A stretch of DNA of 64,000 bases from Marinobacter gelidimuriae (GTDB lineage Bacteria > Pseudomonadota > Gammaproteobacteria > Pseudomonadales > Oleiphilaceae): the NCBI RefSeq assembly GCF_000372805.1, contig NZ_KB889872.1, positions 1 through 64,000 of the forward strand, in the 5' to 3' direction. Made by a program: the position numbers and the translations under genes. The notes beneath the pieces are model-generated. The model saw only the letters and a program-made list of their open reading frames with translations, was not told where the DNA came from and made no database searches. Shown one piece after another: positions 1-53,844 of the stretch (position 1 is its first letter; each line of letters starts with the position of its first letter).

Positions 1-27
1 AACCATGCCTATCCGGTTCGTTGCCAA
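1..27 (+). repeat. Left terminal inverted repeat of the IS1595-type element
   Basis: Perfect 27-bp inverted copy of 1044-1070. It starts at the first base of the window. Confidence 0.92.
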
Positions 28-49
28 AGTGAGAAATCGATGCTAATTT

Positions 50-1042: not shown

Positions 1043-1043
1043 A

Positions 1044-1070
1044 TTGGCAACGAACCGGATAGGCATGGTT
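1044..1070 (-). repeat. Right terminal inverted repeat of the IS1595-type element
   Basis: Perfect 27-bp inverted copy of 1-27. It begins one base after the transposase stop codon. Confidence 0.92.
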
Positions 1071-1106
1071 CAAACCTAATGGCATCATGGGCAAAGGGGC
1101 AGCGGC

Positions 1107-2839: not shown

Positions 2840-3540
2840 TTCTTGATGTTCGCAATATCCAGACGTTCTATGGCGAAAGCCAAGCGCTTCAGGGCGTTAC
2901 TCTTCAACTGGAAGAGGGTGAGACGGTTTGTCTACTCGGCCGGAACGGAGCCGGAAAGAGTACAACACTGAAAAGTATTATTGGTTTAACACCTCCGCGA
3001 TCTGGTGAGGTGATCTTTAACGGCAAGCGAATTCAGGGTTTGCCGCCGCACCGAATTGCCCGTTCAGGCATTGGTTATGTGCCGGAGGATCGCCGGATTT
3101 TTCCCAGCCTGAGCGTCCGGGACAACCTCGAAGTGGCCGCTTATCAGCGCAAGGGAAGTGCCGCCCGTTGGACAGTGGATAATATCCTCAAGAAATACGA
3201 AATGTTGGGAGAGCGAGAAGATCAAGACGGAGCTACTTTGTCTGGCGGACAGCAGCAAATGCTGGCAGTAGCTCGGTCGTTGATGACTCAGCCAAGGCTG
3301 CTGTTGCTGGATGAACCCAATGAGGGACTGGCCCCGGTTATTGTGCAGCAGATTGGGGAGTTGATTGACGATCTTAGTCAGACCACGACCATACTGTTCA
3401 CTGACCAGAGTGTTCGATTCGCACTGAAACATGCCCGGAAAGCCTACATTCTGGAAAAGGGGCAGGTTGTCCATCAGGCCACTAGTGACGAACTGCGAGC
3501 TGACCAGGCCACTCAGGAAAGGTTCTTGTCGGTCGCGTAA
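2836..3540 (+). CDS. livF: Branched-chain amino-acid ABC transporter ATPase LivF
   Basis: 234 aa, second ATPase of the Liv importer. It shows Walker A GRNGAGKSTT, ABC signature LSGGQQQMLAVARSL and Walker B LLLLDEPNEGLAP, the last being diagnostic for LivF. It starts in an ATGA overlap with livG and ends 32 bp before the TetR-type regulator gene. Length is normal. The Asn in DEPNEGLAP replaces the more usual Thr/Ser and is also common in homologues. Substrate assignment rests on family only. Confidence 0.92.
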   Translation: MILDVRNIQTFYGESQALQGVTLQLEEGETVCLLGRNGAGKSTTLKSIIGLTPPRSGEVIFNGKRIQGLPPHRIARSGIGYVPEDRRIFPSLSVRDNLEVAAYQRKGSAARWTVDNILKKYEMLGEREDQDGATLSGGQQQMLAVARSLMTQPRLLLLDEPNEGLAPVIVQQIGELIDDLSQTTTILFTDQSVRFALKHARKAYILEKGQVVHQATSDELRADQATQERFLSVA

Positions 3541-3572
3541 TCTGGATTGGAATAATCGCTGTAGGAGCGGAT

Positions 3573-4265
3573 ATGATTGAAAATTATGAAGCGTTTCGCG
3601 GCGAATTGAGCCTGTCGAAGGAGGATGTGATCCGTGATGTTTACCGTCAAAACAAAGACCGCATAAGCATTAAAAAGGAGGCAACTGCGGTCAAAAACCT
3701 GACACGGATTATTGAGTCAACCCTTCGACTGGCCAATTCCAAGGGTTTTCATGCGATGACATTGAGAGATTTGTGCGCCGATTCAGGGATGAGCATGGGC
3801 GGGCTATACGCCTACATTAGCAACAAAGCCGACCTGATTCATTTGATTCAAAGCCACGGTTTTATTATCACGCGCCGGACTCTTCTTCATTACACAAGCC
3901 AGGTCGAGGATATACGCGATCGATTGTTTGCCGCCATCAAGGCCCATCTATATCTGAGCGAACAAATGCGAGCCTGGTTCTACTTTTCCTACATGGAAGC
4001 AAAGAGTCTACCGGCTCCACAAAAGCGTGACGCTATTGCGATCGAACTTGAAATTGAAGAGATCTTTCTGGATTTGATTGAAGATGGCATCAAAAAAAAA
4101 ATATACGGCGCAAAAAACGCGCGTTTAGTTTCCCTAATGACAAAGGCCTTGTTGCAGGATTGGTATTTGAAGCGCCGAAAATATCGTGATCAAGGCGTTG
4201 GCGTCGACGACTACGCTGTATTTGTCCGGGATGTGATTGAAAGCTATTTGCTCTGGAAACGCTGA
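3573..4265 (+). CDS. TetR/AcrR-family transcriptional regulator
   Basis: 230 aa. A TetR-type helix-turn-helix spans about residues 62-86 (MTLRDLCADSGMSMGGLYAY), preceded by an unusually long N-terminal segment of about 40 residues. The rest is the helical ligand-binding and dimer domain with no recognisable specificity. A TAGGAG ribosome site precedes ATG 3573. It follows livF by 32 bp on the same strand, so it may be the last gene of the liv operon. It would then be a candidate local regulator of a transporter whose ligand may not be an ordinary branched-chain amino acid. Base composition is slightly more AT-rich than the core genes. Confidence 0.85.
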   Translation: MIENYEAFRGELSLSKEDVIRDVYRQNKDRISIKKEATAVKNLTRIIESTLRLANSKGFHAMTLRDLCADSGMSMGGLYAYISNKADLIHLIQSHGFIITRRTLLHYTSQVEDIRDRLFAAIKAHLYLSEQMRAWFYFSYMEAKSLPAPQKRDAIAIELEIEEIFLDLIEDGIKKKIYGAKNARLVSLMTKALLQDWYLKRRKYRDQGVGVDDYAVFVRDVIESYLLWKR

Positions 4266-4407
4266 GTCTTCCGCGTAAGCACGCTTACATCAACGGCAAA
4301 AAGACTCCCCAAAAACGCAAAGTTAACTGCGGCGCTTGTTCTTATCCAGCCATGCTGAAACAATCGCGGGAATAACTTTCTATCACCCCCTATCACTGTG
4401 GCTTACC

Positions 4408-4650
4408 ATGCAACTATTAATTCGTAATCTCGCCCGCACCACCACCGAACAGGAAATCCGCGAGCTGTTTGAGGCACACGGCACCGTAACCGAATGCACT
4501 CTGGTTCTGGATAAAGAAACCGGCAAATCAAAAGGGTTCGGTTTCGTGGAGATGCCCGATGCAAAACAGGCGAAACTGGCCAAGGCAAAGTTGCACGAGA
4601 CCCGTCTGGGCACCAACAAAATACGAGTAAAAACGGCTCAGGAAAAATAG
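4408..4650 (+). CDS. Small RRM-domain RNA-binding protein
   Basis: 80 aa if begun at ATG 4408; the open frame extends back to 4336 but homologous proteins begin as MxLLIRNL. It is a single RNA-recognition motif: RNP2 is LLIRNL at residues 3-8 and RNP1 is KGFGFVEM at residues 42-49, carrying the aromatic residues that stack on RNA. Proteins of this type are common in marine gammaproteobacteria and some are cold-inducible; the RNA target here is unknown. It stands alone between the TetR gene and a convergent oxidoreductase gene. No strong ribosome site is seen. Confidence 0.85.
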   Translation: MQLLIRNLARTTTEQEIRELFEAHGTVTECTLVLDKETGKSKGFGFVEMPDAKQAKLAKAKLHETRLGTNKIRVKTAQEK

Positions 4651-4687
4651 CAAGCCGGGGCTTTATGGCCAGAATTTTAAGACCCGG

Positions 4688-5686
4688 CTAATTCTTGAGA
4701 GCAGCCAGAATCTCAAACGAACGCAAGCGGTCTTGCTGGTTATAAAGATCGCAGGTGAAAAGAAGCTCATCCGCCTGGGTGTGCTGCAAAAGCGTTTGCA
4801 GTTTTTGTTTGATGGTGTCGCCACTGCCAATCATCGCCAGGCCCAGAAAATCTCGCACGGTTTGCTCTTCCTGGGGATGCCACAGGCCATCCATGCTCGC
4901 CACTGGCGGGCGCATCTTCAGGCTCTGGCCACGGATTAACGACAGTATGCGTTGATAGGTGGTGGTGGCCAACAACTCGGCTTGCTCATCGGTGTCGGCC
5001 GCAACCAAGGGCACACCCAGCATTACATAGGGCTTGTCCAACAATTCCGACGGCTGAAACTGGCTGCGGTATATGTCTATAGCCTGCATCATCATGCGCG
5101 GCGCAAAATGCGACGCAAAGGCGTAAGGCAAACCCTTCTTTGCCGCCAGTTGTGCGCTGAACAAGCTGGAACCCAACAACCAGATCGGCACGTTGCTGTC
5201 CACACCCGGCATAGCCACAACCTTTTGGCCTGGCTGGCGCGGCCCCAGAAATGCCTGCAGCTCTTCCACGTCCGCAGGAAAGTCATCCACACTTCCGCTC
5301 AGGTGTTTGCGCAAAGCGCGGGATGTGAGCGGGTCAGTGCCAGGCGCGCGGCCCAAACCCAGGTCAATACGGCCAGGGTAAAGCGCTTCCAACGTGCCGA
5401 ACTGTTCGGCGATCACGATGGGCGCGTGGTTTGGCAGCATCACACCCCCTGCTCCCACGCGCATTTTCTGCGTGCCCGCCGCCAGATAACCAATCACAAC
5501 CGCGGTGGCCGAGCTAACAATGGCATCCATATTGTGGTGTTCGGCCACCCAGTAACGGTTGAAGCCTAACTGTTCCACATGTTTGGCCAGCGCCAGTGAA
5601 CGATGTAAAGCCGGCGTTGCGCCTTCATCGTTGTCTTTTGTGGAGGCTAAATCCAATACTGAAAACGCCACTTCGTTTATGTTCAT
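4688..5686 (-). CDS. Luciferase-like flavin-dependent monooxygenase (YhbW/MsnO8 type)
   Basis: 332 aa. The sequence is a bacterial luciferase-like TIM barrel: AFSVLDLA start, the conserved YWVAEHHNM segment near residue 45, [20 protein letters not shown] near residue 80, and [12 protein letters not shown] near residue 110, all hallmarks of the single-component LLM subgroup represented by E. coli YhbW. It probably binds reduced FMN or F420-like flavin; the substrate is unknown. Full length, with no disruption. It converges with the RRM gene and has its own upstream region of 110 bp. Confidence 0.88.
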
Positions 5687-5796
5687 TGCCAGTCACCCTT
5701 TCACTTTATGCTGTCGCGATTTGAATAGCTCGCGTAATAGTAGCTAGTTATGACGATAACACACCCGCACAGGCAATAAGACTTACAGACGGGACA

Positions 5797-6084
5797 CTAA
5801 GGAACGGCACGCTCGACTATGCACTCGTAGCCGCCCATTTCGAATTCACGGCAGATGAACGGGCGCTTCTGATAAATTGAGCAAGACATGGTGTGGCGGT
5901 CCAGCGCGGCGCACCAGCCGTCGTCCAGTCGGGCCATGGTGCGGCTGCCCCACTGGTCCGTTGCAATGAAGCGCTCTGGCACGCCGGTCTCTGTAATCAG
6001 CATGACTTCGAGGCGACAACAGCAAGCCTGACAGCTTGAGCAGCTGATGGTGCTGTCTGGCAGATTCTCGGCTTCAATCCTCAT
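5797..6084 (-). CDS. YkgJ-family cysteine cluster protein
   Basis: 95 aa from ATG 6084; the frame is open to 6135. It belongs to the YkgJ (zinc/iron-chelating) family: clustered cysteines at residues 15, 18, 21-23, 58, 68, 78 and 88, with the typical CSIYQKRPFICREF block. Function of the family is not established; metal binding is inferred from the cysteines. Its start forms an ATGA overlap with the last codons of the damaged tnsC frame. That overlap is probably accidental, since the tnsC homology ends around 6140. This gene may mark the chromosomal side of the truncated transposon. Confidence 0.75.
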   Translation of the reverse strand: MRIEAENLPDSTISCSSCQACCCRLEVMLITETGVPERFIATDQWGSRTMARLDDGWCAALDRHTMSCSIYQKRPFICREFEMGGYECIVERAVP

Positions 6085-7233
6085 TGGAATGGGCCATTGT
6101 ATTCTCCGCGAGCGTTGTGACTGAAGGTAAGCCACTGATCTGTTTTAAACACTAGGCCCGATTGCTGAACGGCATCCAGCATTTGTTCCTCGTTCGCCGC
6201 CTGGGAGTGCATAAAACGAAAATCGTCCGAGTCGAGAGTGTGCCACTCCTTTACTTTGATCGATTTGGTTTTTTGCTTTCTCTTCGCCGGTGGCGACTGC
6301 TCCAAAGACTGATACCAGTTCAGAATGATGGGCATCAGATCTTTAATCTGTAAGTCGGTGTGCTCTTCAAACGCTCTTTGGATCAGAGGTTCCAAAAAAT
6401 CGGACTCGTAGCCCATATCAACCAGCATGTTATGCAACCGGATTGCCTGGTCGTTACCTCCGTACTGCACCGATTTTCGGATCTGATCCTTACTGGATTC
6501 CAGCAGGTTACTGAGTTCCAAAATTTTCTTATCAATATCCGGAATTGTGAGATCAGAATAGCGGGCTATTTTGCTGGGATCGCCCGACCGCAGTGCTTCC
6601 ATCATGGGATGAATTGGTTTCAGCTCATCTTGATAGACCGCTGTCATGATGTTGGGCGTGATACGTTCCGTGCCCGTCACCACCGCTCGAATCTGGGATA
6701 GCACAAACAGCTTAATGACGACATCCATGATGCCCTGAGAAAGGTTGAACCACAGACCTCTCAGTTCATCGGAGATCTCCTCACTGGCTTTGGTCAACCA
6801 CTGGTATTTCCAGAGTTTGCTCGTGAACGCGCCCCATTCGGTGCGCAGCACGTTTTCTTCAGGAGCAGGCTTGCTCAGAGGTTCCCATAATATCGCGCTC
6901 GTACCCGTTCTGTATATGGGCCGAGAGGTCTCCGGTCGCCAGGTTTCTTCCTACATACCCCTGGCGTAGCATAATCGAGATTTTGGATTCCAGCTCGATA
7001 TGGCGTGCTAATGGCTGAAAGAAACCATCGAGTAGTTGGGAGATAATGTGAATTCTGGTTTCACCATCAAGGTAACTATCCGCCGGCCGGAGCTTTATGC
7101 TTCCTCTAAGCCCGACCTTTAGCTGTTTGCGCTCAAGGATGGGCGGCAACGCCTCAATCAATGGATTTCCCTGGTAGCCTGGAACCTCTGTCTTCCGGTA
7201 AACCGCACTCACCATTCCTGCGGGTAGTGTCAT
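6081..7233 (-). pseudogene. tnsC: tnsC pseudogene lacking the AAA+ ATPase core
   Basis: Two reading frames together resemble the two ends of Tn7 TnsC, the ATP-dependent regulator that links target selector and transposase. The 5' piece (7233-6859) matches the N-terminus (EALPP near the start, MLRQGYVGRNLATGDL, IQNGYER). The 3' piece (about 6880-6081) matches the C-terminal part (EWGAFTSKLW, LSQGIMDVVIKLFVL, VYQDELKPIHPMMEALRSG). The middle of roughly 190 residues, with Walker A and Walker B, is absent and the two parts are out of frame. The junction lies around 6870-6885. The last residues before 6081 are probably not transposon-derived. The gene starts in a four-base overlap with tnsB. Confidence 0.85.
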
Positions 7234-9302
7234 TCGTCGTCTCCAAACAGCTCGTCTATGAAGTCCGGGAAAGAGCCTTCATCCGGTTTTCCATGCAGGT
7301 AGGTTACCTCAGACTTCGGTTTGCTGTTGTCAGGCTGGCGTGCTTTTGTTTGCTCAGTTCTCTGAGCATCCCGCTCTTGCTTTCGATTATCGCGTATGCC
7401 CCTGACTGTCGCCGCTTTGGATTGTTTGAATACTGTGGGGCGTGAACGTTCAGCGTCTTTGATGGTTCGGCTGACCAGGTTTTCGAGGTCTCGCTTGCTT
7501 GTTGTTTCAGCAACCTTTGCGGTGCTGGCAGCTTGCCGTTGCTGCTCCTGACTGGCCCACAGCTCCCACATCGACTTGCCTCGATACTGGCGTGAACGAT
7601 CAGTCAGAGCGCACACCCAGTATTCTGAGCTGCCATCTTCAGGGAAAAGATAGATATGATCAGCAACTGCGGGATCATAGGCAGCACGCAGGTTAGTTAC
7701 CCTGCGCTCACCGTTGCGATGCAGCCAACCGGATGCCAACAGCTCTTTCGATGTGTAGTAAGCACCAAAACAGCTCACCCCCAGATCGGACAAATAGACT
7801 TTTTGCCTTGGCAATAAGGCAAGTCGTAGAGCGTCTTCAGATACATTTCTCAGTCGGCCGGTACGGTATTGTATGCCCCAGTTCCAAATGTTGAGCGGGG
7901 TTAATGCCATATCATTGGGCATATCCGCATCACGATCATATTTTGGCAGCACAGCGTACTGATTCCGGTGCAGAATGGAGGCGAGCATAATGCGCGTAAA
8001 GTCTTCCAGTGTCAGCGTTGCATCCAATCGATAATCCTTGCCTCCCTGCTTTCTGACTTTTGTGCCGGTCACAACGCCAGGAGCAAACGGTTTGAACTCG
8101 GCCTGCAGAGTGCGGAAGTAGCGCTCGACAATGCCTTTCGCATCGCCCCGGAAAGGTGGGGTGATTTCTATCCGGACACCGAAAGCTTTTTCCAGTGACT
8201 CTATCTGGTAGCCCAGCAATTCACCTCGATCCGCTAGGATCGCATCGGGTATCCCAACGGTGGGCCATTGCTCACTGGTAATTTCAAGACCATACCGACC
8301 ACACAGATCGGTCTTATCAGACATCGAGGTGACCAAAGCACCCATGGCCGTCACATAGGACGGATTTTCCAGCCCAACATAAAAGCCTGTTACCATCCGG
8401 CTGAAGACATCGACCACTACGTATAACGTGGGGCGGCCAATTACGTTGTGTCGATCGGCCGACAAGAGGTAGATGTCGGCAATTGTCGCGTCGATTTCAT
8501 ATCTTGATCCTGGGCCCAGTACGCCAGCCGTGGCGGTACCAATTAATGGGCGGACGTCCTTTTGGTAGGTTATTCTGTTGGTACGTAAACGAATCCGATC
8601 AGCTTTCTTGTACTCACGTTCATAGAAGTACCGGAGTTGAATCACCGTTGGGTAATCCTCTCGGTGCACATCTGGATTTGCCGCCTCAAACATATCCATG
8701 AATTTTCTGTGGGCATAGGGCAAGGCGCGCCCCTTATCATTGACGTAATGCCGATCAAGTACGATGCGGAACATTCCCTCAATAGACGAATCAACTGTAA
8801 TGCCAGTGCCTGGGGCCGTTTTTCGGGGCCGCCCCAGTTTCTTCTTGGAAGTTTTCTTCTGGTCTTTTCCACCGGACTTGCTGTAATCCGGTAACAGCGC
8901 GTTGGGTATTGCCCCCCGCTGCCAATATTGTCGAAGATTCTTGTAGAGGGTTTTTCGTGGCGTACCAGTTTCGTCACTACGGGCTTGCACCAACTGCCCC
9001 CTGCCGCTGCGATAATAAATCTCTTCGTCAGCCAGCAACGGCGCGATCAGTTCATTTCGTTCATCGCGGATTTTCTGGGCATTGGCCCCCTGCTGAACAG
9101 GAATAGTTGCGAGATAGGAAAAAGGATCGTCTAATTTCCGCAGGGACTCATCAAGTATCCACTGCTCAATTTGGTCTGTTGTGACAACTTCCGGAAAAGC
9201 TTTGGCTGAATCAATATTAATCCAAATGACAAAATTTCCAGACATCGTCAGTATCCGGTACCGCTCATCCCCCATCTGAATGACATCATTGATTCGCTGC
9301 AT
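7230..9302 (-). CDS. tnsB: Tn7-like transposase TnsB (DDE strand-transfer subunit)
   Basis: 690 aa, close to the 702 aa of Tn7 TnsB. It is a DDE/RNase H-fold recombinase that binds the transposon ends, cuts the 3' ends and joins them to target DNA. The catalytic triad can be placed as D271 (RYEIDATIADIY), D358 (PDAILADRGELLG) and E393 (FRGDAKGIVERYFRTL), nearly the same spacing as in Tn7. An N-terminal helix-turn-helix region and the Mu-type C-terminal beta barrel are present. The frame is uninterrupted, unlike both neighbours. It overlaps the end of tnsA by 17 bases and tnsC by four. Its likely binding sites are the GTTACCAACTTTATT repeats at 10156-10210 and 12618-12652. Confidence 0.92.
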   Translation of the reverse strand: MQRINDVIQMGDERYRILTMSGNFVIWINIDSAKAFPEVVTTDQIEQWILDESLRKLDDPFSYLATIPVQQGANAQKIRDERNELIAPLLADEEIYYRSGRGQLVQARSDETGTPRKTLYKNLRQYWQRGAIPNALLPDYSKSGGKDQKKTSKKKLGRPRKTAPGTGITVDSSIEGMFRIVLDRHYVNDKGRALPYAHRKFMDMFEAANPDVHREDYPTVIQLRYFYEREYKKADRIRLRTNRITYQKDVRPLIGTATAGVLGPGSRYEIDATIADIYLLSADRHNVIGRPTLYVVVDVFSRMVTGFYVGLENPSYVTAMGALVTSMSDKTDLCGRYGLEITSEQWPTVGIPDAILADRGELLGYQIESLEKAFGVRIEITPPFRGDAKGIVERYFRTLQAEFKPFAPGVVTGTKVRKQGGKDYRLDATLTLEDFTRIMLASILHRNQYAVLPKYDRDADMPNDMALTPLNIWNWGIQYRTGRLRNVSEDALRLALLPRQKVYLSDLGVSCFGAYYTSKELLASGWLHRNGERRVTNLRAAYDPAVADHIYLFPEDGSSEYWVCALTDRSRQYRGKSMWELWASQEQQRQAASTAKVAETTSKRDLENLVSRTIKDAERSRPTVFKQSKAATVRGIRDNRKQERDAQRTEQTKARQPDNSKPKSEVTYLHGKPDEGSFPDFIDELFGDDE

Positions 9303-10106
9303 AACTCGCCCTCAACAATGTTATGTCCTCAACAACCTGAAGATCTCGCGCTACCAATCGACTCCAGGGAGTTGAGATATCAAATGTCAGTGCCCTTAGA
9401 GCCATCAACGCTCGTAATCGCGCCAGGGAGGTGCCGGCTTCCAGCGAATAGGACCGGTCAATCAACATTCCGATATCCGGGAGCTTGGTATTGGGGTTAG
9501 CTTCCAGAGAGTCGACGTAGACGGGAAGGCTGTTAAACAGTATCTCCAGACTCTCACTTTGGACTCTGGCGGAATAAAGAATGTCCAGATTTTTCACCAC
9601 GGTTTTGGGGATCTGCTTTTCAGTGAGTAGATACCAGGAAATGCCCTTCTTTTCCAATAGCGGCGCTCAAGCTCCAGCTTTTCGACAGTTCGTGGGTCTT
9701 TAAGATCAGAGGAATCTTTAACCTGAATAGCCAATCGCTCAGGCCCGGACGGCGCGAAGAGATCAACAACAAAATCGGAGGACATGATCTTTGTATACCC
9801 GCCCACTTCAGGGTGCCGAATGTTGGCTTCTTCAGCAAGAATCAGAGTGTCTTCTAAACGGAGGGGGAATTGCTCGCGGATGTCAGTGACGGCTGGATTC
9901 CACTCCAGCAAAAGAAAGGCCGCCAGTTCCATGTCAGAGAGAAGGTGATGAGTCCGTTGCGTAAGATGGCCCATCACCCGATGTGAACGGCCTCGGGAAG
10001 ATAGATCTCTGACAGTGAGCCAGGGGTGGTAGTCCTTGCCGTTCCCGCTGCCTCTTCCTTCTTTGATCCACTTCTGGACACGTTTTTCGAGCTTGTAATC
10101 GGTCAT
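9286..10106 (-). pseudogene. tnsA: tnsA with single-base frameshift (TnsA endonuclease)
   Basis: TnsA is the restriction-enzyme-like nuclease that cuts the 5' ends of Tn7. The first frame (10106-9594) has the nuclease core with E60 (LLSDMELAAF), D111 (SSDFVVDLF) and QVK at 128-130, in the order of Tn7 TnsA. After ERRYWK the frame changes and ends out of register. The C-terminal TnsC-binding part continues in the -1 frame (ISWYLLTEKQIPKTVVKN) down to 9286. The shift maps to a run of four A (minus strand; T at 9650-9653). One more A would restore a single frame of about 273 codons. This can be a real mutation or a sequencing error in a homopolymer. No canonical slippery heptamer is seen. Confidence 0.85.
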
Positions 10107-10155
10107 TCCCTAGATTCCTGGAAAGAATGACCTGACTTTGCCACAACGTTCGTGA

Positions 10156-10221
10156 GTTACCAACTTTATTACAAAGTTACCAACTCTTTTAAGTTGTTAC
10201 CAACTTTATTATGATCCCACA
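10156..10221 (-). repeat. Tn7-like right end with three TnsB-type binding sites
   Basis: Three copies of GTTACCAACTTTATT lie exactly 20 bp apart at 10156-10170, 10176-10190 (degenerate, ends CTCTTTT) and 10196-10210. The outer terminus is CCACA ending at 10221. This matches the architecture of Tn7 right ends, where overlapping or evenly spaced 22-bp TnsB sites precede a TGTGG terminus. tnsA begins 50 bp inward, so the array may also repress the tns promoter. The five bases outside the end are CCGTG (10222-10226). Confidence 0.85.
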
Positions 10222-10962
10222 CCGTGGCCAACATGTGGAAGATCATCCTTGAGCAAGAGCACGATTATGACATCGAGCTATCCGATATCGGAAAGAGCGT
10301 TCTCTACAGTGGCCTGGCCAACGAGGACGTCGATATCTCCATGGAGATCTGGCTGCCTACCACCGATGCCTCCTTCCTCGCGCCTTACGAGGATGAAATT
10401 GATGTACACGATGTCTGGTACGAAGGCACTGCCCTGGGCTTGGTGGTGCCGAGCTACGCCGAGATCGACACCATTCCCGAGCTTGGCGAGAACGCCGAGG
10501 CGTATGAATACCAGGGTAGATCGGCCATCCTTGGCATCGGTCCCGGCTCGGCCATCGCCAGCCTGACCGACGATGCCATCGACGCCTACGAGTTGCCATT
10601 TAATCAGGTCAACAGTTCGGGCCCGGCGATGATGGCGGCGCTAGACGCGTGAGAAACCGATCGTCGTCACGCTGTGGAGCCCGCACTGGGCCTTCGCCGA
10701 GTACGACCTCAAGTACCTGGAGGACCCCGAGGGTGTCTATGGCGAGAGCGATGACATTCACTGGATGTCGCGCAAGGACTTCGCTGACGAGGATCCATGG
10801 CTCACCGCCGTGCTCAATGACTGGTACATGGACGATGACACTCTGGGTGGCCTGATGGCGGAAATCGAGCAGACCGGTGATCCGGTGGAGGGCGCCCAGA
10901 CCTGGATCGACGAGAATCGCAATCTGATCGACGAATGGGTGGCGGCTGGCGACGCTGACTGA
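10222..10962 (+). pseudogene. Truncated, frameshifted glycine betaine ABC substrate-binding protein (OpuAC type)
   Basis: The frame entering at the transposon end reads as mature OpuAC domain sequence (ANMWKIILEQEHDYDIEL, then AIGLANEDVDI-like GLANEDVDISMEIWLPTTDA, and YEGTALGLVVPSYAEI). It stops at 10652 and continues in another frame with EKPIVVTLWSPHWAFAEYDL, then WMSRKDFADEDPWL to a normal end at 10962. Thus the signal peptide and N-terminus are missing and there is one frameshift around 10650 (one extra base, or two missing). The 5' cut coincides with the Tn7-like right end, so the element may have inserted into this gene and its other half was later lost. The sequence is distinctly GC-rich and rich in Asp/Glu, suggesting a halophile-type origin different from its neighbours. 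Confidence 0.8.
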
Positions 10963-11478
10963 TCCCGCATTGAATATGATACCGGCACCCCAGAAACGTC
11001 ACGGCCTCATGTCGCTAATAAAAGGTAGCTGAAGGATTGTCGATGTTTCCGGAATATGGTCAGGCAGCCAATGGTTGGCTGCCTGACCATCCACCCCCAA
11101 TCCATACTGTCGCAAAAATTGCGAAGACCAGGTGGCTGACACGGTCTCAGAGATAGCTGTGTGGTCAACCTGGGACTGCCCACCTGGACCGAGATCTTGT
11201 AAGTAGTGGGGGCTCAAGTTCAAAGATAGTCGTGCTTTACTTAGGCGAAACCAACCCCGGCCCAGCTCTATCATCAGTCGCATCGTGATGTGAATGACAC
11301 CTTGCAGCAAGCGATGTGGATGGCCTCTAGATGTTTGATGGTCAAGGGCGAATGAATCCGAATCCGTTGTCCGATCAGGAGATCCGGGATCTGGCCCGAT
11401 CCGGCAAACCCTACGCACATGCGTTTCAGAGCATTCCCGGTGGCGAAACGCGTTAGCAATGGAAACGACCTCCTTGAC
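10963..11478 (+). other. Gene-free stretch between opuAC fragment and toxin gene
   Basis: No convincing gene. An open frame of 139 codons on the minus strand (10999-11418) has no recognisable domain, no ribosome site and an Arg/Pro/Ser-rich composition like that of an antisense frame. The only clear structure is the hairpin at 11056-11090. The stretch may be debris of an older mobile element. Confidence 0.5.
11056..11090. repeat. Perfect 15-bp inverted repeat (hairpin)
   Basis: Arms ATGGTCAGGCAGCCA (11056-11070) and its exact complement (11076-11090) flank a 5-base loop. It is not followed by a T run on either strand, so an ordinary intrinsic terminator is unlikely. It could be a transposon-related palindrome or a protein-binding site. 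Confidence 0.8.
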
Positions 11479-12012
11479 TCACGGATCACCTAGCGTCTGT
11501 GCGATGGCATCGCAGATATCAATAGGAAGCCAAAGCTTTAGGCCGCTCTCATCGATAATCTCGAAATCATCACCGCCCCGGCTAAGGTAAAACGCCTTCG
11601 CGTCATTGTCTTTTGCGTCAATCACCAAGCCGACACCCCCGACTCTTTTGGAGGTCTCTGATGCTTCTTTGATCGCAAAGGTGAGAAGGCGCTTTCCGTA
11701 GCTGGAGCCCTTGTATCGATTGTCGACGGCCATTTTTGCAAGGAGTAAGGCAGGGACAGGATTTTTCAGTTTCCGCGCAGGCTTGCACTCAACGGGTAGG
11801 TCAACGGTTGTGTAGGTTAGCGTGATGTACGCCATGATCGTGTTTGGATCGGAGGGGGCTTCTATCACGAATGTTCGGGTTATTCGCTTGTCAGATGAAG
11901 CTCTGGCGCTGTGAGCCAGGAATTCATTCAGGTCAGCATAACCGCAATCAAAAGCTTTGCGGTTATGGCGTTTCTGGATCGGCGTGAGCCTCGTTTGTTG
12001 CGTTAGTGTCAT
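11479..12012 (-). CDS. GNAT-family acetyltransferase toxin (TacT-like)
   Basis: 177 aa. It resembles the GNAT toxins that acetylate aminoacyl-tRNA and block translation. The start region KRHNRKAFDCGYADLNEFL, the acetyl-CoA binding loop in MAVDNRYKGSSYGKRLL (residues 95-110), and Tyr142 in KAFYLSRGG, the position of the catalytic Tyr, are visible. It overlaps the upstream DUF1778-type antitoxin gene by 50 bases and both are read from the promoter at 12379-12407. Such pairs are frequent in mobile elements and would favour retention of this region. The tRNA specificity cannot be read from the sequence. Confidence 0.88.
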   Translation of the reverse strand: MTLTQQTRLTPIQKRHNRKAFDCGYADLNEFLAHSARASSDKRITRTFVIEAPSDPNTIMAYITLTYTTVDLPVECKPARKLKNPVPALLLAKMAVDNRYKGSSYGKRLLTFAIKEASETSKRVGGVGLVIDAKDNDAKAFYLSRGGDDFEIIDESGLKLWLPIDICDAIAQTLGDP

Positions 12013-12298
12013 TTACGGACTCCTTGTAGTCGAGCGCATCCTGCATGAGCTTGCTCGATGGCTTCCGAGGTTTCCGATCCAAGATTTCCAGCATCCTATT
12101 TCCTGTCTCAACAGAAACCCGAATGCGGGTAATCCGATCCACCACTTCTTCAGCTTTTGAGCGGGCTGAATCAATGAGAAACTGGCTCATTGTCATCCCA
12201 GATAGCTCAGCAGCTTGCGCGATAAATTGCTGCGTTTGTGTATCCACTCGTGCGACGAGACGGGGATCTTTACCCGCCTGATTAGTCTGAGTTTTCAT
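11963..12298 (-). CDS. DUF1778 ribbon-helix-helix antitoxin (TacA-like)
   Basis: 111 aa from ATG 12298, chosen because AAGGA lies just upstream; the frame is open to 12388. Residues 11-50 (PRLVARVDTQTQQFIAQAAE, then SGMTMSQFLIDSA) form the ribbon-helix-helix DNA-binding fold of DUF1778 antitoxins, and the C-terminal tail should wrap the GNAT toxin. It is the first gene of the pair and probably represses the promoter upstream together with the toxin. The tail is longer than in TacA of Salmonella (88 aa class), with a disordered, acidic end. Confidence 0.87.
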   Translation of the reverse strand: MKTQTNQAGKDPRLVARVDTQTQQFIAQAAELSGMTMSQFLIDSARSKAEEVVDRITRIRVSVETGNRMLEILDRKPRKPSSKLMQDALDYKESVNDTNATNEAHADPETP

Positions 12299-12378
12299 TT
12301 CCTTGCTCCCGCTATTTATATGACTTCCCGACCGAGCGTTTTTTCTTAAATGGCCCTTATTGGTCAGTGTTGGAAACG

Positions 12379-12407
12379 ATGATAACAAGAGTTCTCATCT
12401 ATGTCAA
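12379..12407 (-). promoter_or_regulatory. Sigma-70 promoter of the toxin-antitoxin operon
   Basis: On the minus strand a perfect -35 TTGACA and a -10 TATCAT are separated by 17 bases. The predicted start of transcription is about 70-75 bases upstream of the antitoxin ATG. A loose inverted repeat TGTGTG...CACACA just upstream (12411-12431) may be an operator, which is an inference. Confidence 0.7.
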
Positions 12408-12531
12408 TTTGTGTGACAAAACGGCACACAGGGTTTGGGGCTGTGGACTTGAAGAGGTCCAGCCTTCGGCCTTCAACGACCAGGTGTGTTGCTCTGGTGC
12501 GTTAAATTAATTGGAAGCGCCTGCAACCTTC

Positions 12532-12663
12532 TGTGGAAGGCGCTAAAAAATAAAGTTGGTAACTTTGTCCCAGCATTACACTCCTTATCGACAGCAGATC
12601 AGTGGCTTACCCCATTAGTTACCAACTTTATTACCTTGTTACCAACTTTATTATCACGCCACA
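12532..12663 (-). mobile_element. 132-bp mini Tn7-like element (left and right ends only) at attTn7
   Basis: A left-type terminus TGTGGAAGGCG begins at 12532 with one site AATAAAGTTGGTAAC at 12549-12563. A right-type terminus ends CCACA at 12663 with two sites GTTACCAACTTTATT at 12618-12632 and 12638-12652, again 20 bp apart. The right terminus is 24 bp past the glmS stop codon, the normal Tn7 insertion position and orientation. Only about 50 bp separates the two end regions and no gene lies between. The five flanking bases differ (CCTTC left, ACCGT right), so it may be a deletion relic or two ends from different elements brought together, not a simple insertion. Confidence 0.65.
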
Positions 12664-12687
12664 ACCGTTGGCAGCTGCGATCTTTGC

Positions 12688-14520
12688 CTACTCCACCGTA
12701 ACACTCTTCGCCAGATTTCGAGGCTGGTCCACGTCAGTACCTTTCAACACGGCAACGTGATACGACAGCAACTGCAAAGGCACGGTGTAAACGATGGGCG
12801 CGGTAATCTCGTGTACCGACGGCAGTGACAACACGTGCAGGCCTTCTTCCGCTTTTACATTGGCTTGAGAGTCGGCAAACACAAACAGCTCACCGCCGCG
12901 GGCGCGGACTTCTTCAAGGTTGGACTTGAGCTTTTCCAGCATAGCGTTGTTCGGGGCGACGGTGACGACCGGCATGTCGCTGTCTACCAGCGCCAGCGGG
13001 CCATGTTTGAGCTCGCCAGCCGGATAGGCTTCGGCGTGTATGTAGGAAATTTCTTTCAGTTTCAGCGCACCTTCCAGCGCCACCGGGAACAAAGAGCCAC
13101 GGCCCAGGAACAGGCTGTGGACTTTGTCCAAAAAGGCGCCAGACAGCTCGGCGATGGCGCTGTCTAAAGCCAACACCTGTTCGACCTGTCCCGGCACCTT
13201 ATGAAGCGCCTCTACGATTTCGGCTTCGCGCTCTTCAGTCAGGCCGTTGTGGCGCGCCAACGCCAGAGTGAAAATCAGCAGCGCGGTGAGCTGGGTGGTA
13301 AAGGCTTTGGTGGAGGCCACACCAATTTCCGGCCCGGCCTGGGTCATCATCACCAAATCGGATTCGCGCACCAGCGAGCTGCCTGGCACGTTACAAATGG
13401 CCAAAGCGGCGCGAAAGCCGGCTTTTTTAGCCTGACGCAAGGCCGCCAGGGTATCAGCGGTTTCACCGGACTGGGAAATGCACAGGAACAGGGTGTCGGG
13501 CTGGATTACGTGTTTGCGATAGCGGAATTCGGACGCCACCTCCACTGAGCAGGGCACACCGGCCAGGTCTTCAATCCAGTAACGGGCCACCATGCCGGCG
13601 TGGTAACTGGTGCCACAGGCAATAATCTGCACGTGGCGCACATCCTTGAGCAGGTCTCCAGCGGACGTGCCCAGCGCTTGTTCCATCACTTTTTTGGCGG
13701 TCACCCGGCCTTCCATGGTGGCTTTGATCACCCGCGGCTGCTCAAAGATTTCCTTCAGCATGAAGTGACGATATTCGCCCTTATCAGCGGAATCGCTGCC
13801 GTGTTCAAAGCGACTCACTGTGCGTTCTACCACTTGCCCTTCGCGGTCGCGAATTTCCATGCGGTCGCGGCGAATGTCTGCCATATCGCCTTCTTCCAAA
13901 AACATGAAGCTGTCGGTTACCGGCAGCAGCGCAAGTTGGTCAGATGCGATGAAGTTCTCGCCGATGCCTACGCCAATCACCAGCGGACTGCCTTCGCGGC
14001 ACACGACCATGTGATCGGGTTCATCGGCGTGTATGACCGCCAGGGCGTAAGCGCCTCGCAGATGGCTGATCGCCTGGCTAACCGCTTGATACAGATCGCC
14101 GTTGATGCGGTATTTTTTTTCGATCAGGTGGGCGATCACTTCGGTGTCGGTTTGCGAGGTAAATTCGAAGCCTTCAGCTTTCAGTTCCTCACGCAGGTCC
14201 TGATAGTTTTCGATAATGCCGTTGTGAACGATGGCAAGTCGGTCGCCAGACATGTGTGGATGGGCATTTATCTGCGAGGGCGCACCGTGGGTGGCCCAAC
14301 GTGTATGGGCGATGCCCACAGGACCCGCCGGCGGATTGGCAGCAATAGCTTCAGCCAAAGCAGCCACTTTGCCCACTTCGCGGGCGCGATGCACCTGTGC
14401 TGCGGAGTCAATCACGGCCATACCTGCTGAATCGTAACCGCGGTATTCAAGGCGACGCAGTCCCTCAAGAAGTATGCCGTGAACGTCCCGTTCTGAAACC
14501 GCACCTACAATGCCACACAT
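12688..14520 (-). CDS. glmS: Glutamine-fructose-6-phosphate aminotransferase GlmS
   Basis: 610 aa. It converts fructose-6-phosphate and glutamine to glucosamine-6-phosphate, the first step to UDP-GlcNAc for peptidoglycan and lipid A. The start at ATG 14520 gives MCGIVGAV with the catalytic N-terminal Cys of the class-II glutamine amidotransferase; the open frame extends further upstream but would block that Cys. Two SIS sugar-isomerase domains follow ([23 protein letters not shown], then [20 protein letters not shown]). The C-terminus KSVTVE is the conserved TnsD recognition region, consistent with the Tn7-type end 24 bp downstream. glmU lies 79 bp upstream on the same strand. Confidence 0.97.
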
Positions 14521-28152: not shown

Positions 28153-29496
28153 TTATTTATCCACATGGTTGACGGTTGATTCCTGCTCTTTGTAGCGGCG
28201 AATCCGTAACACCAGCGGCAGCACCAACAGATTCACCACAGACAAGATCAACAAAAACAATGGAATACTCAAACCGGCAATTCCCAGCAGAAGCATACCC
28301 GCCAGCGCACTGACCAGCATAAACAACGAATTGATGACGTTCAGCGCGGCGATAATGCGGGCGCGTTTATGGGCCTCGGTGGCACTCTGAATATAAGCGT
28401 ACAAAGGCACAATAAAGAGCCCGCCGGCGGCGCCGATCAACACCAGATCGACCAGCAGCCTCCAGTATTCAGGTTGGCTCAGTAACAACCACCAGGTGGT
28501 TGGCACGGCGCTGGCCGGCAGTGCAAAAAAAAGATCGATACCCGGTAAGGTTAAACCCAAGGTGCCCCAGGGCACGGGCGCCAGGCTGACACTGTGGTGG
28601 GTTAGCCGCTCACACAACACCGAACCACTGGCAATTCCGACAATAAACAGTGACAGCAACAAGGTAACAACGGTTTCATCGCCCTGCAGATACAGCCGGG
28701 CAAAATTGGGGAACTGGGTTAGATAGGCTGCGCCCAAAAACCAGAACCAGGAGATGGCCAATATCGCCAGCAACACCGGGCGCTGTTCGGCGGCCACCGC
28801 CATCAGACGCCAACTTTCCCGCAGGGGCTGCCAGCGCATGGGGCTCATTGATTTTGGTAATTCCGGCGCGGCCGTAGCGGGTATTTGGCGCGCACTCAGG
28901 TAGCCCAATAGCGCCATAATAACCACAGCAAAGGCTATCAGCGGGGTTGCCAGGGGGAAACTGGCCAGTACGCCAGCGGCAATGGTGCCCAGCAGTATAG
29001 CCAAGAATGTGCCGCCGCTCACCAGACCATTACCGCCTACCAGCTCGCTGGGTTCCAGCACCTGGGGCAAAATGGAATATTTGACCGGGCCAAAAAAAGC
29101 AGACTGAGTGCCCATCAAGAACAGCAGACACAGCAATACGCCGTACCAACCTTGCCACAGCGCTAACGCAGCCAAGGTCATGATGACGATTTCTGAGGCT
29201 TTCACCCAGCGAATAATGCGGGCTTTTTCGTGGCGGTCAGCCAACTGGCCGGCCAGCCCGGAAAACAGAAAATAAGGCACAATGAACAAAAACGCCGCCA
29301 GATTAACCACCAGGTCCACCGGCAGGCCGGCCCAGCCTACGGTGGTAAAGGTGATCAGCAGCAAGAGCGCGTTTTTGTAAAGGTTGTCGTTGAAAGCGCC
29401 GCTGAACTGGGTCAGGTAAAACGGCAAAAATCGCCGCTGGCGCAATAGCTGAAATTGGCTCGAACTGCTATTCGTACTGGTATCAGGACTGCTCAC
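28153..29496 (-). CDS. MFS transporter, lysophospholipid transporter-like (LplT/Aas type)
   Basis: 447 aa from GTG 29496, which has GGAAG 6 bases upstream; the frame is open to 29574 but would overlap the upstream gene much more. About twelve hydrophobic helices. The N-terminal FYLTQFSGAFNDNLYKNALL and GTQSAFFGPVKYSILP motifs are typical of the MFS domain found in LplT and fused acyltransferases. LplT flips lysophospholipids into the inner membrane; an acyltransferase partner is not nearby, so the substrate is inferred. It overlaps the chimeric gene upstream by 14 bases. Confidence 0.82.
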   Translation of the reverse strand: MSSPDTSTNSSSSQFQLLRQRRFLPFYLTQFSGAFNDNLYKNALLLLITFTTVGWAGLPVDLVVNLAAFLFIVPYFLFSGLAGQLADRHEKARIIRWVKASEIVIMTLAALALWQGWYGVLLCLLFLMGTQSAFFGPVKYSILPQVLEPSELVGGNGLVSGGTFLAILLGTIAAGVLASFPLATPLIAFAVVIMALLGYLSARQIPATAAPELPKSMSPMRWQPLRESWRLMAVAAEQRPVLLAILAISWFWFLGAAYLTQFPNFARLYLQGDETVVTLLLSLFIVGIASGSVLCERLTHHSVSLAPVPWGTLGLTLPGIDLFFALPASAVPTTWWLLLSQPEYWRLLVDLVLIGAAGGLFIVPLYAYIQSATEAHKRARIIAALNVINSLFMLVSALAGMLLLGIAGLSIPLFLLILSVVNLLVLPLVLRIRRYKEQESTVNHVDK

Positions 29497-30514
29497 TGAG
29501 CGCTTCCAACTTTCGCTCAACGGTGTTGGCAGAGCTGGCAAAGCGCGCCAGCAGATTGTACAGCACCGGCACAATGAACAGCGTCATGCTGGTGGCGAAC
29601 ACCAGCCCGCCCAGTATAACCACGCCAATGGCGGCACGGCTTTCGGCGCCGGTGGCCAGTACCAGAGGAACAGCACCAAACACCGTAGAGATGGTGGTCA
29701 TCAGTACCGGGCGGAAGCGCAATACGGAGCCTTCCACAATGGCGTCGCGTACCGAGTAGCCCTGATCCCGCAGCTGATTGGCAAATTCGACAATCAAAAT
29801 GCCGTTTTTCGCCATCAACCCCAACAGCATAATAATGCCAATCTGGCTGTAAATATTCAGGCTGATGCCGGTCAGCCAGAGCGCCATGAGCGCACCGGCA
29901 AACGGCGCGCTGATACGGTGGTTTTCAAGATTTACTCTGGCGGCTACGCGCTGTGCCTGAAGCACGTCGGCTGCGGTGCGCAGCTCGTCCATCTGGGCAA
30001 TAGCGATGCTGTTACTGGAGCTTAACTGGCGGGCGCGATCGTATTGGCGTTTGGCCTGGGCCTGGCGATCATCGAGGCGTAACAGCAAATCACCTTTGGC
30101 CACCTCAAGCATATAATTCATGTGTATGGCATTGCCCGACCAGCGCATAGTGCCGGCTTCGGTGACGTCACCGGCGGCGCGATAACTCTCGCCGTCTGGC
30201 GTTAAGGTCCATACACGGGTTTGTACTTCGCCATCATCAAAGCGGAACACCTCGTCTAACGTGCCCACGCCCTGCTCGGTCCATGATGCCGTGATATCCG
30301 CGTCAAAAGTACGAATAACAGCGCCAGACCAGTCTTTGACCACACCGCGGGCAGACAGGTTGCCAGCGAAGAATTGGTCGGGCACCAACGCCGGTGAGCG
30401 ATCTTGATAATCATCCAACGATGGGCCGGCACAGCCGCCAAGTAGAAAGAACGGTAGCAGTATCCACAGTCGTTTCCAGCCCCATACACGGCTGAAACAC
30501 AAAATTTGCATCAT
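29483..30514 (-). CDS. Chimeric ORF: DUF3833 lipoprotein / efflux adaptor / RND pump fragments
   Basis: 343 aa from ATG 30514 (GGGAG upstream). Residues 1-28 are a lipoprotein signal ending in the lipobox LLGGC. Residues to about 138 match DUF3833 lipoproteins (MRWSGNAIHMNYML). At about 139 (near 30100) the sequence changes to a HlyD-type periplasmic adaptor (KGDLLLRLDDRQAQAKRQ, then ENHRISAPFAG). At about 206 (near 29896) it changes again to the C-terminal membrane part of an RND pump (IGIIMLLGLMAKNGILIVEF, VLRFRPVLMTTISTVFG). Each source protein lacks most of its length, so transport activity is improbable. The simplest reading is two in-frame deletions across three consecutive genes. Misassembly is the alternative. 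Confidence 0.8.
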   Translation of the reverse strand: MMQILCFSRVWGWKRLWILLPFFLLGGCAGPSLDDYQDRSPALVPDQFFAGNLSARGVVKDWSGAVIRTFDADITASWTEQGVGTLDEVFRFDDGEVQTRVWTLTPDGESYRAAGDVTEAGTMRWSGNAIHMNYMLEVAKGDLLLRLDDRQAQAKRQYDRARQLSSSNSIAIAQMDELRTAADVLQAQRVAARVNLENHRISAPFAGALMALWLTGISLNIYSQIGIIMLLGLMAKNGILIVEFANQLRDQGYSVRDAIVEGSVLRFRPVLMTTISTVFGAVPLVLATGAESRAAIGVVILGGLVFATSMTLFIVPVLYNLLARFASSANTVERKLEALSEQS

Positions 30515-30644
30515 TTTTACACTCCCTGGGACTATGGCGTGGTGCGGCGGCCACGATATAGCAACCACCGCAAGAATAGCGCTTGTTTGGGGAGACTACG
30601 CTGGCGCCTGGGGTTCCGATCAGATTTCGGTGGGCGCCAGAGTT

Positions 30645-34170: not shown

Positions 34171-34900
34171 TCACTCAAATGCCGTTCCCGACGGAGCCAT
34201 TGCCGGCACGCCCGACTGGGTGTCGCTGCACATTCTGGACGGTGGCCAAACCGGTGACAGCGGCCAGGTGCATTTCCAGGCCATCTTCACAATTAGTTTG
34301 ATGGTAACGCCACTCGCTGAGTCCTCAAATGCCTGATTAATTTGCTGAAAATCATAAAACTTGATCAGTTTGTCAAACGGAAACTGCCCCGCTTTGTAGT
34401 ACGCAATCAACTGCGGAATAAACACCCTGGGGATAGAATCACCTTCAATGACACCTATCATGCTCTTGCCTTCGGCCATCAAGTCATTATGAATATCAAG
34501 CTTTACTTCGGGCGTAATGCCGACGATCGCGCAGGTTCCCAGTGGCCGCAGGGCATTCAATGACTGCTTGACCACCTGGGGCACACCGGTGGTTTCAAGC
34601 GCATAATGACTGCCTCCACCGGTAAGCTTTTTGACTTCCGCTACCACATCGACTTTTTTACCGTTGAAAACATGGGTTGCGCCCAGTTCCAGAGCCAAAT
34701 TAAGCCGGCTGTCATGAACATCCACCGCGATGATGTACTGGCAGCCAACTATTCTGGCCGCCATAACGGCGCTAAGGCCCACAGCACCAGCACCGTAAAC
34801 CACCACACTGGAACCGAATTCCGGCTTCAGGCGATTCAGAATCGTTCCTGCGCCAGTCTGGAGACCACACCCCAACGGACCCGGCAGTGCCAGATCAACA
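34171..34900 (-). pseudogene. Remnant of a zinc alcohol dehydrogenase (aryl/benzyl alcohol type)
   Basis: The NAD-binding and C-terminal half of a medium-chain alcohol dehydrogenase: [18 protein letters not shown], Rossmann motif VVVYGAGAVGLSAVMAA, then YALETTGVPQVV and a normal ending near KLIVKM. The catalytic N-terminal half with the zinc ligands is missing. The 5' side joins directly to an aldehyde dehydrogenase fragment at about 34900. The 3' side has no stop at the expected place: the frame runs on about 36 codons into unrelated sequence. That tail (34151-34283) read on the plus strand gives TPDWVSLHILDGGQTGDSG, possibly a YchJ-like fragment. Not expected to be functional. Confidence 0.75.
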
Positions 34901-35299
34901 TCCGGTTGATGGCCATGCAGATCTGGCCCTGGTGCAAAAACTTGCCAAAAATCGCTGCTTTTACAGCCTGCTCGACGTCTGCATCTTCCAGCACCACAAA
35001 CGGGTACTGCCAGACTCGTGGATCAGCCAGTCAATGATCTCTTCTTTGCGTTGGTCAAAAATGGACACTGCTTTATGCATCAATGCGGCGCGTTCGGCGA
35101 GAGGCGCTTCTGCCCAGTCAACCTGAGCTTCTGCGGCTTTTTTGTAGGCCGCATCCAGATCGGCAGACGTCGCAGAACGAATGAAAACCAGTGTTTCGCC
35201 GGTGTATGGGTTCACAACGGCACGGGCATCTTTGCCGCTACCTTCGCGCCACTCCCTTGCCAGCGGTTGCAAATGAAAATTCCGGTAGTATTCAGCCAT
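34901..35299 (-). pseudogene. Remnant of an aldehyde dehydrogenase (benzaldehyde dehydrogenase type) with internal deletion
   Basis: Codons 1-99 from ATG 35299 match the N-terminus of XylC-like aldehyde dehydrogenases ([32 protein letters not shown]). At about 35000 the frame jumps to a segment that belongs much later in the protein ([20 protein letters not shown], then [14 protein letters not shown]), including the region of the catalytic Cys, and this breaks off at about 34902 against the alcohol dehydrogenase piece. About 150 residues between are missing. In known pathways such a gene pair oxidises aryl alcohols to acids via the aldehyde, so this looks like a collapsed benzyl-alcohol type gene pair. 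Confidence 0.75.
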
Positions 35300-52224: not shown

Positions 52225-53844
52225 GTGCGCCCCTACGCCGATAACGACTACCCTGCCAACCATAAGCCGGACTGGAAAATCATCGCCGGCCTGTGGCCCT
52301 ACCTGGCGGAATACCGTGGCCGGGTGATACTGGCGGTCAGCATGCTGATCATGGCGAAAGTGGCCATAGTCACTACGCCGATTGCATTGAAATACATCGT
52401 CGATTATCTGGATCAAAATCGTGGCGCTGACATGGTGCTGTGGATCCCGCTGATGTTAGTGCTGGCCTATGGCGCGCTGCGTTTTGGTAGCACCCTGTTC
52501 AATATTGTGCCCACCCTGCTCGAAATCGCGATGGTGGCAGGCATTCTGCTGGTCGCCTTCAACGTCAGTTACGTGCTGGCGATACTGGTGTCAGTGGTGG
52601 TATTCGTGGTTTTTTCTATCCGCGTGACCGAATGGCGCACGGCCTTCGTGCGCGAAGCCAACAACCGCGACAACCAGTCTAACTCCCGTGCTATCGACAG
52701 CCTGCTGAACTACGAAACCGTTAAATACTTTAATAACGAGCGCTTTGAAGCCGAGCAATACGACGAAGATCTGGATTTGTGGGAGCAGGCGAGGCTTAAA
52801 AACCGCACGTCTATGGCGGTGCTGAACATTGGCCAGGCGTTTATTATTGGGTCCTCTATGGTGGCCATTATGGCCATGGCCGTACGCGAAGTGGCCAGTG
52901 GGCAGATGACCCTGGGCGACTTCACCATGGTGAATGCCTACCTGATCCAGTTGTTCATTCCGCTGAATGCTTTGGGGTTTGTGTACCGCGAAATTCGCCA
53001 GTCACTGGTGAATGTAGAGCGCCTGTTCGGTTTATTGGGCGACAAGCCGGCGATTGAAGACGCCGCCGATGCCAAAGCCCTGGCGATCACAAAAGGTGAC
53101 GTGCAATTCCACGACGTGCGCTTCAGCTACCATCAGGAACGGGCCATTTTGAAAGGCGTGAACATCACCATACCCGCAGGCCACACCATTGCGGTAGTTG
53201 GCGCCAGCGGTGCTGGTAAATCCACCTTGGCACGGCTGCTGTTCCGCTTTTTTGATGTAAACAGCGGCAGCATCACCATTGATGGGCAAGACATTCGCAA
53301 CATTACCCAAGATAGCCTGCGCTCGGCCATTGGTGTGGTGCCGCAAGACACCGTGCTGTTCAACGACACCCTTTACAGCAACCTGGCCTACGGCCGCCCC
53401 GGCGCCAGCGAAGCCGAAATACACCACGCGGTCCGCCAGGCCAACCTGGATGGGTTTATCCGTAGCCTGCCGGATGGCTATAGCACCAGAGTGGGTGAAC
53501 GTGGACTGAAGCTTTCCGGTGGCGAAAAACAACGCGTTGCCATTGCTCGTGTATTACTGAAAAACCCGCCGTTGCTGATTTTGGACGAAGCCACTTCATC
53601 GCTGGACTCGATCTCTGAACAGGCCATTCTGGATGCCCTTAACGAGGTTACCCAACAGCGCACGACGTTGGTAATCGCGCACCGCCTATCCACTGTGCGC
53701 GACGCCGACACCATTCTGGTGATGGACGAGGGCCAGATTGTGGAGAGCGGTGGGCATAATGAGTTGCTGGCGAAAGATGGTTACTACGCAAGGCTTTGGT
53801 TACAGCAACAGCATAGCGATGATGAAACATCAGCAGAGAATTAA
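52225..53844 (+). CDS. ABC exporter of the Atm1/HMT1 class with an internal in-frame deletion
   Basis: 539 aa, while the class is about 600. The ATPase domain is complete: VGASGAGKSTLARLLFRFFD, LKLSGGEKQRVAIARVLL, LILDEATSSLDSISE. In the membrane domain, GALRFGSTLFN (residues 84-93) is followed directly by IVPTLLEIAMVAGILL. In normal family members these are separated by about 60 residues (the RDVVFA...RQTGG...DIERGTRGISFLL region, which ends in another LFN). The deletion probably arose between two LFN-encoding stretches (52495-52503). The lost part includes a transmembrane and coupling segment, so function is doubtful. Normal role: export of glutathione-linked species or lipids. Confidence 0.83.
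   Translation: MRPYADNDYPANHKPDWKIIAGLWPYLAEYRGRVILAVSMLIMAKVAIVTTPIALKYIVDYLDQNRGADMVLWIPLMLVLAYGALRFGSTLFNIVPTLLEIAMVAGILLVAFNVSYVLAILVSVVVFVVFSIRVTEWRTAFVREANNRDNQSNSRAIDSLLNYETVKYFNNERFEAEQYDEDLDLWEQARLKNRTSMAVLNIGQAFIIGSSMVAIMAMAVREVASGQMTLGDFTMVNAYLIQLFIPLNALGFVYREIRQSLVNVERLFGLLGDKPAIEDAADAKALAITKGDVQFHDVRFSYHQERAILKGVNITIPAGHTIAVVGASGAGKSTLARLLFRFFDVNSGSITIDGQDIRNITQDSLRSAIGVVPQDTVLFNDTLYSNLAYGRPGASEAEIHHAVRQANLDGFIRSLPDGYSTRVGERGLKLSGGEKQRVAIARVLLKNPPLLILDEATSSLDSISEQAILDALNEVTQQRTTLVIAHRLSTVRDADTILVMDEGQIVESGGHNELLAKDGYYARLWLQQQHSDDETSAEN

Follow-up and report, generated by a model that had tools for sequence, protein, structure and literature searches.

The window analysed here is a stretch of 64,000 nucleotides of Marinobacter gelidimuriae (contig NZ_KB889872.1, positions 1 to 64,000), which harbors on its minus strand an open reading frame composed of the front of a DUF3833 lipoprotein, a piece of a HlyD-like efflux adaptor and the tail of an RND permease. 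The reference relative, here called G004, is a one-contig genome that is about 92–93% identical in the sampled parts, and alignment to it, together with Pfam and NCBIfam profiles and inspection by eye, delimits the following features:

30522..30527, minus strand, Shine-Dalgarno-like AGGGAG with the ATG 7 nt downstream (by eye)
29483..30514, minus strand, fusion ORF of 343 codons plus stop, from ATG at 30514 to TGA at 29483
30099..30514, minus strand, DUF3833 lipoprotein front (Pfam and alignment to G004)
30089..30104, minus strand, junction J1, 471 bp lost relative to G004
29905..30098, minus strand, HlyD/RND_mfp adaptor piece, hairpin region (NCBIfam and alignment to G004)
30053..30055, minus strand, junction J2, 36 bp (12 residues) lost within the adaptor piece
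29895..29904, minus strand, junction J3, 3282 bp lost
29486..29904, minus strand, RND permease tail, last membrane helices (Pfam and alignment to G004)
28153..29496, minus strand, LplT-like MFS gene, probable GTG start at 29496 (by eye)

The extent of the frame, its three parts and the ribosome site ahead of it agree with what an earlier note had read from the letters. The DUF3833 front carries in its translation a signal sequence with an LLGGC lipobox, recognised by eye, and its family match (residues 23–146 of the fusion, E = 1.8e-34) reaches 119.1 bits against a Pfam gathering threshold of 25, which places it in the family with only positions 2–128 of 163 covered; about 45 C-terminal codons of the G004 gene are missing. 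The adaptor piece matches RND_mfp (TIGR01730) at residues 140–209 (E = 3.9e-7), and with 29.3 bits under the curated cut-off of 94.9 the fusion ORF does not qualify as an adaptor of that family. Nor is it a full-length RND permease of about 1000 residues, since ACR_tran is matched at residues 205–322 (E = 3.3e-43) by profile positions 900–1020 of 1021 only, and the NCBIfam RND cut-offs are far out of reach (for example, 156.8 against 1250 bits). The downstream LplT-like MFS gene is equal in length to its G004 counterpart, and its probable start overlaps the fusion stop by 14 nt.

In G004, separate ORFs for DUF3833, the adaptor (372 codons from stop to stop) and the RND pump (1032 codons) follow one another in the order and direction of the parts of the fusion, with the MFS gene next. 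Three losses of 471, 36 and 3282 bp separate the fusion locus from this arrangement, and each of them joins frames. The J1 loss takes in the end of DUF3833, the intergenic gap and the start of the adaptor, while the J3 loss removes roughly the second half of the adaptor together with 86% of the RND gene, counted from its start. Further small in-frame losses lie near 29649 (6 bp, in the RND tail) and near 30178 (3 bp), and all five length changes at the locus keep the frame. The joins that the earlier note had placed near 30100 and 29896 fall within a few bases of J1 and J3 and are in frame, as it had said; of its suggested double deletion the deletion origin holds, but not the number, as the 36-bp loss near 30053 had been missed. 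At J1 the two G004 flanks agree at 13 of 16 bases, 7 of them consecutive, and in protein both read VA-x-GD, followed slightly further on by DD, which indicates that the join between the two unrelated genes formed where they happened to resemble each other. The exact flank matches at J2 and J3 are 3 and 4 bases, inside weaker similarity. Because the three pieces are colinear with a single operon and 93.5, 86.5 and 94.6% identical to it in nucleotides, their combination is not due to chance. When the amino-acid differences are polarised by relatives, 5 fall on the branch of the window, 7 on that of G004 and 2 are unclear. The retained pieces thus have no excess of amino-acid change on the window branch, so the event looks recent, although a constrained or kept product would fit this pattern as well.

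The same locus was sought in 38 genomes, comprising the window's own, 24 of the same genus and 13 of the same order. Among the matches listed, only the window's own genome has a match covering the whole fusion. In 23 of the 24 same-genus genomes, G015 being the sole exception, the RND tail is at least 75% identical and part of an open frame of 1032–1086 codons, and a separate DUF3833 match occurs in at least 20 of the 24. A set of 42 named loci, mostly from Marinobacter with a few other genera, was drawn from the best matches of a longer list: the RND tail was matched in all 42, the adaptor in 40 and DUF3833 in 28, and no single match spans the fusion in any of them. In 28 of these loci, as in G004, the three pieces are apart and in order, which is the arrangement expected if the chimeric ORF derives from deletions. 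DUF3833 is unmatched in the other 14, some of which have little upstream DNA or belong to other genera; not every locus therefore shows the complete order of three genes. The missing stretch, searched in the window's own assembly by scoring 40 of 57 first-look candidates, returned the retained pieces and a weak paralogue of 70–79% identity on contig C56 only; as far as the assembly reaches, the lost DNA is thus absent from the rest of the genome. Separate full-length genes at the locus, which the earlier note had named as the finding that would speak against a fusion, were likewise sought in the assembly and not found.

It is very likely that the ORF is a recent deletion scar of an operon encoding the DUF3833 lipoprotein, the adaptor, the RND pump and the LplT-like MFS protein. 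Illegitimate recombination by slippage or annealing, either in three events or in a single complex one that jumped three times, would have joined short imperfect repeats so that one frame was kept, and the locus may represent one case of ongoing genome shrinkage. Judging from the sequence, the scar is probably non-functional. Its product, if made and stable, would be a periplasm-facing piece of lipoprotein anchored to the inner membrane through about three RND helices, its sorting being predicted from the signal sequence, and would presumably have no function of its own. As this product lacks most of the pump and of the adaptor, efflux by this system has most likely been lost.

It could be argued that the fusion is instead a selected, functional membrane-anchored lipoprotein, with a periplasmic front, the adaptor hairpin as a spacer and the RND helices as an anchor. 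In that sense, the five length changes are all in frame, the ribosome site is kept, amino-acid change is not in excess, and the positive-inside tendency suggests that the last three RND helices would place the front in the periplasm, as an exported lipoprotein needs. This proposal is nevertheless highly improbable, given that the fusion is confined to one genome among the matches listed and the named loci, that DUF3833 is without its end, the adaptor piece without 12 residues and the RND tail without two that are present in G004, and that similar losses affect many other sampled genes. The novel fusion that the earlier note had considered, taken as a selected new protein to be sought in relatives, is unlikely, as the relatives keep separate genes and none carries a spanning match.

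Losses of this kind were counted on contigs sampled for the RND, RecB-type or MutS hits on them, not at random, after dropping alignments below 78% identity (75% under narrower criteria) or half covered by a better one; the stretches L145 and L146 were left out of the analysis. Under one set of criteria, 87 clean losses relative to G004 were found in 504 kb of alignment, with closely similar densities in the first sample (54 in 317 kb, 0.171 per kb) and the second (33 in 187 kb, 0.176 per kb). In this count J1 and J2 form one join of 507 bp, and the transposase pieces of contig C104 are omitted, their G004 stretch having been assigned to the other set. For the contigs of the first sample, the 54 losses (36 coding, 23 in frame) were obtained without filling in small pieces; filling them in raised the number to 65 (44 coding, of which 27 in frame), and a further count arrived at 52 (36 coding, of which 23 in frame). 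The reverse comparison yielded 16 and 3 losses (0.051 and 0.016 per kb), and a control pair of the genus with 89.6% identity yielded 6 and 2 in 150 kb (0.040 and 0.013 per kb), or 3 and 1 under the narrower criteria. Together the 87 losses amount to 82.7 kb, which, if scaled up, would cover a large share of the gap between genome sizes of 3.63 and 4.45 Mb. They are clustered, with 37% of neighbouring joins less than 500 bp apart against 8% under random spread, and exact microhomology of at least 5 bp is present at 15% of 52 joins, compared with 0.7% of joins drawn at random. Of the 35 G004 genes affected in the first sample, ten were checked in Pfam, and nine pass a family cut-off, among them a class-III aminotransferase, a dicarboxylate symporter and an RND pump, with profiles nearly fully matched; the tenth, a secretin-like ORF, falls below it. 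Therefore, G004 likely represents the older state in the first sample, while polarisation with further relatives covers the fusion locus only. A second HlyD adaptor/RND pair (L133 18518-19314, G000 C60 38518-39314) shows in-frame losses of 216, 273 and 1644 bp, and other RND matches in open frames of 1034–1134 codons remain in the genome.

An assembly or library artefact, in which the joins would be chimeras absent from the organism, has to be weighed against a deletion scar, as the genome is a draft of 136 contigs, the evidence comes from the assembly only and the density of joins is unusually high. Chimeras produced by whole-genome amplification are mostly inverted. The sampled contigs, in contrast, run mainly in one direction along G004, broken by clean losses, and the minority direction makes up 0 to 2.5% of the aligned bases on five first-sample contigs. 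The assembly is listed as 100% complete, the search of its other contigs did not find the missing DNA, and a frame-blind process would not be expected to leave 38 of 56 coding joins in frame, above the matched expectation. Contigs C46 and C84 share a 95-bp end, which suggests an assembly word length of around 95 bases, a span that greatly exceeds the similarity at the joins. An artefact is thus very unlikely.

Coding joins are those with both ends in ORFs of one direction, and the 38 of 56 in frame (23/36 in the first sample, 15/20 in the second) compare with 19 expected at one third; without the two joins of the fusion locus the count is 36 of 54. Since codon structure makes in-frame similarity commoner, controls were matched for junction similarity, and they predict 24.8 or 25.8 in-frame joins of 56 (z 3.7 and 3.4, both optimistic, since simple stop-to-stop frames served as control ORFs and joins that share a gene are not independent of each other). 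Codon-phased similarity was rejected as the sole cause, as it explains part of the excess and leaves about 13 joins. Losses above 1 kb are in frame in 9 of 13 cases. This excess, large losses included, is not predicted by neutral decay and counts against reading the ORF as a mere scar. By exact microhomology, the in-frame joins are 14/28 at 0–1 bp, 11/14 at 2–4 bp and 13/14 at 5 bp or more; the excess lies mostly where joins have homology, which counts against selection as the pure cause. Coding joins of the reverse and control comparisons are in frame in 3/6, 0/1, 1/1 and 0/1 cases, too few to compare.

The frame could also be kept because a broken one would be polar on the LplT-like gene that overlaps the RND stop. 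The 14-nt overlap and the unchanged length of the MFS gene at the fusion locus are consistent with such polarity. Across the sample, however, a close downstream partner is not commoner for in-frame joins: 8/27 in-frame joins have one against 4/17 out-of-frame joins (p 0.74), and pooled joins give 7/38 against 4/18 for a partner within 30 bp (p 0.73); widening the distance to 100 and 200 bp gives p 1.0 and 0.57. The overlap itself is not general among relatives, as a long ORF clearly starts at the RND stop in 1 of 12 loci (L051). Coupling to downstream genes was accordingly rejected as the general reason for frame keeping, and polarity at the fusion locus is an unlikely explanation. A repair defect was also rejected as the cause, given full-length matches to MutS and RecB in the window genome; Ku, the third repair family searched, was found in neither this genome nor G004.

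The simplest idea is that frames may be kept by selection against out-of-frame translation; another is a similarity-driven process that the controls would capture only in part. A broader proposal, which we consider rather doubtful, is that deletion at short imperfect repeats proceeds at a high rate in this lineage and is frame-filtered by some pressure, even where genes are destroyed or merged, so that translatable mini-genes and fusions accumulate, a few of them perhaps being put to use. Chimeric ORFs made from gene remnants are known to arise in shrinking genomes, as the orphan genes of Rickettsia. The fusion ORF resembles them in being short and in arising from deletions that join remnants of neighbouring genes. 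It differs in its setting, a Marinobacter genome of 3.6 Mb where the matches to MutS and RecB are full-length and where joins in frame are measurably in excess. Deletions between short direct repeats, of the lacI type, are attributed to slippage or annealing; the joins described here also lie at short, often imperfect repeats, but the losses cluster within hundreds of bases and keep the frame more often than codon-phased similarity predicts. The titles and abstract openings of the literature searched revealed neither a study of this genome nor one describing in-frame deletions of this type, and, judged by title, none of the papers naming DUF3833 concerns its function. Taken alone, the fusion ORF is probably a scar; considered with the many other losses, it suggests that the genome is in the course of shrinking through in-frame deletions, alongside a one-contig relative that keeps the genes. 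The in-frame pattern of the sampled genome deserves more attention than the fusion ORF; if the shrinkage is real, it would offer a test case for why bacteria keep frames in genes being lost, and for whether such fusions seed new proteins.

Elsewhere in the window, positions 1–12688 are not colinear with G004 around the fusion locus, and their pieces match G004 at about 3.247, 0.157 and 3.215 Mb. At 34171–35299, three pieces adjoin: the front of an aldehyde dehydrogenase, a stretch of 105 bp with 96% identity to G004, and the back of a zinc alcohol dehydrogenase. The 487-bp step at 35004 is out of frame, although the aldehyde dehydrogenase front matches G004 at only 74% and may not be its direct counterpart. 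At 52225–53844 lies an ORF that by eye resembles an ABC exporter; compared with an ORF of 600 codons in G004, it shows an in-frame loss of 195 bp, or 65 residues, near 52516. On contig C104 (L129 15096-15810, G000 C104 55096-55810), three pieces are 97–99.7% identical to a transposase-gene region of G004, with 402 and 363 bp removed between them, so that these losses lie within what looks like a very recent insertion.
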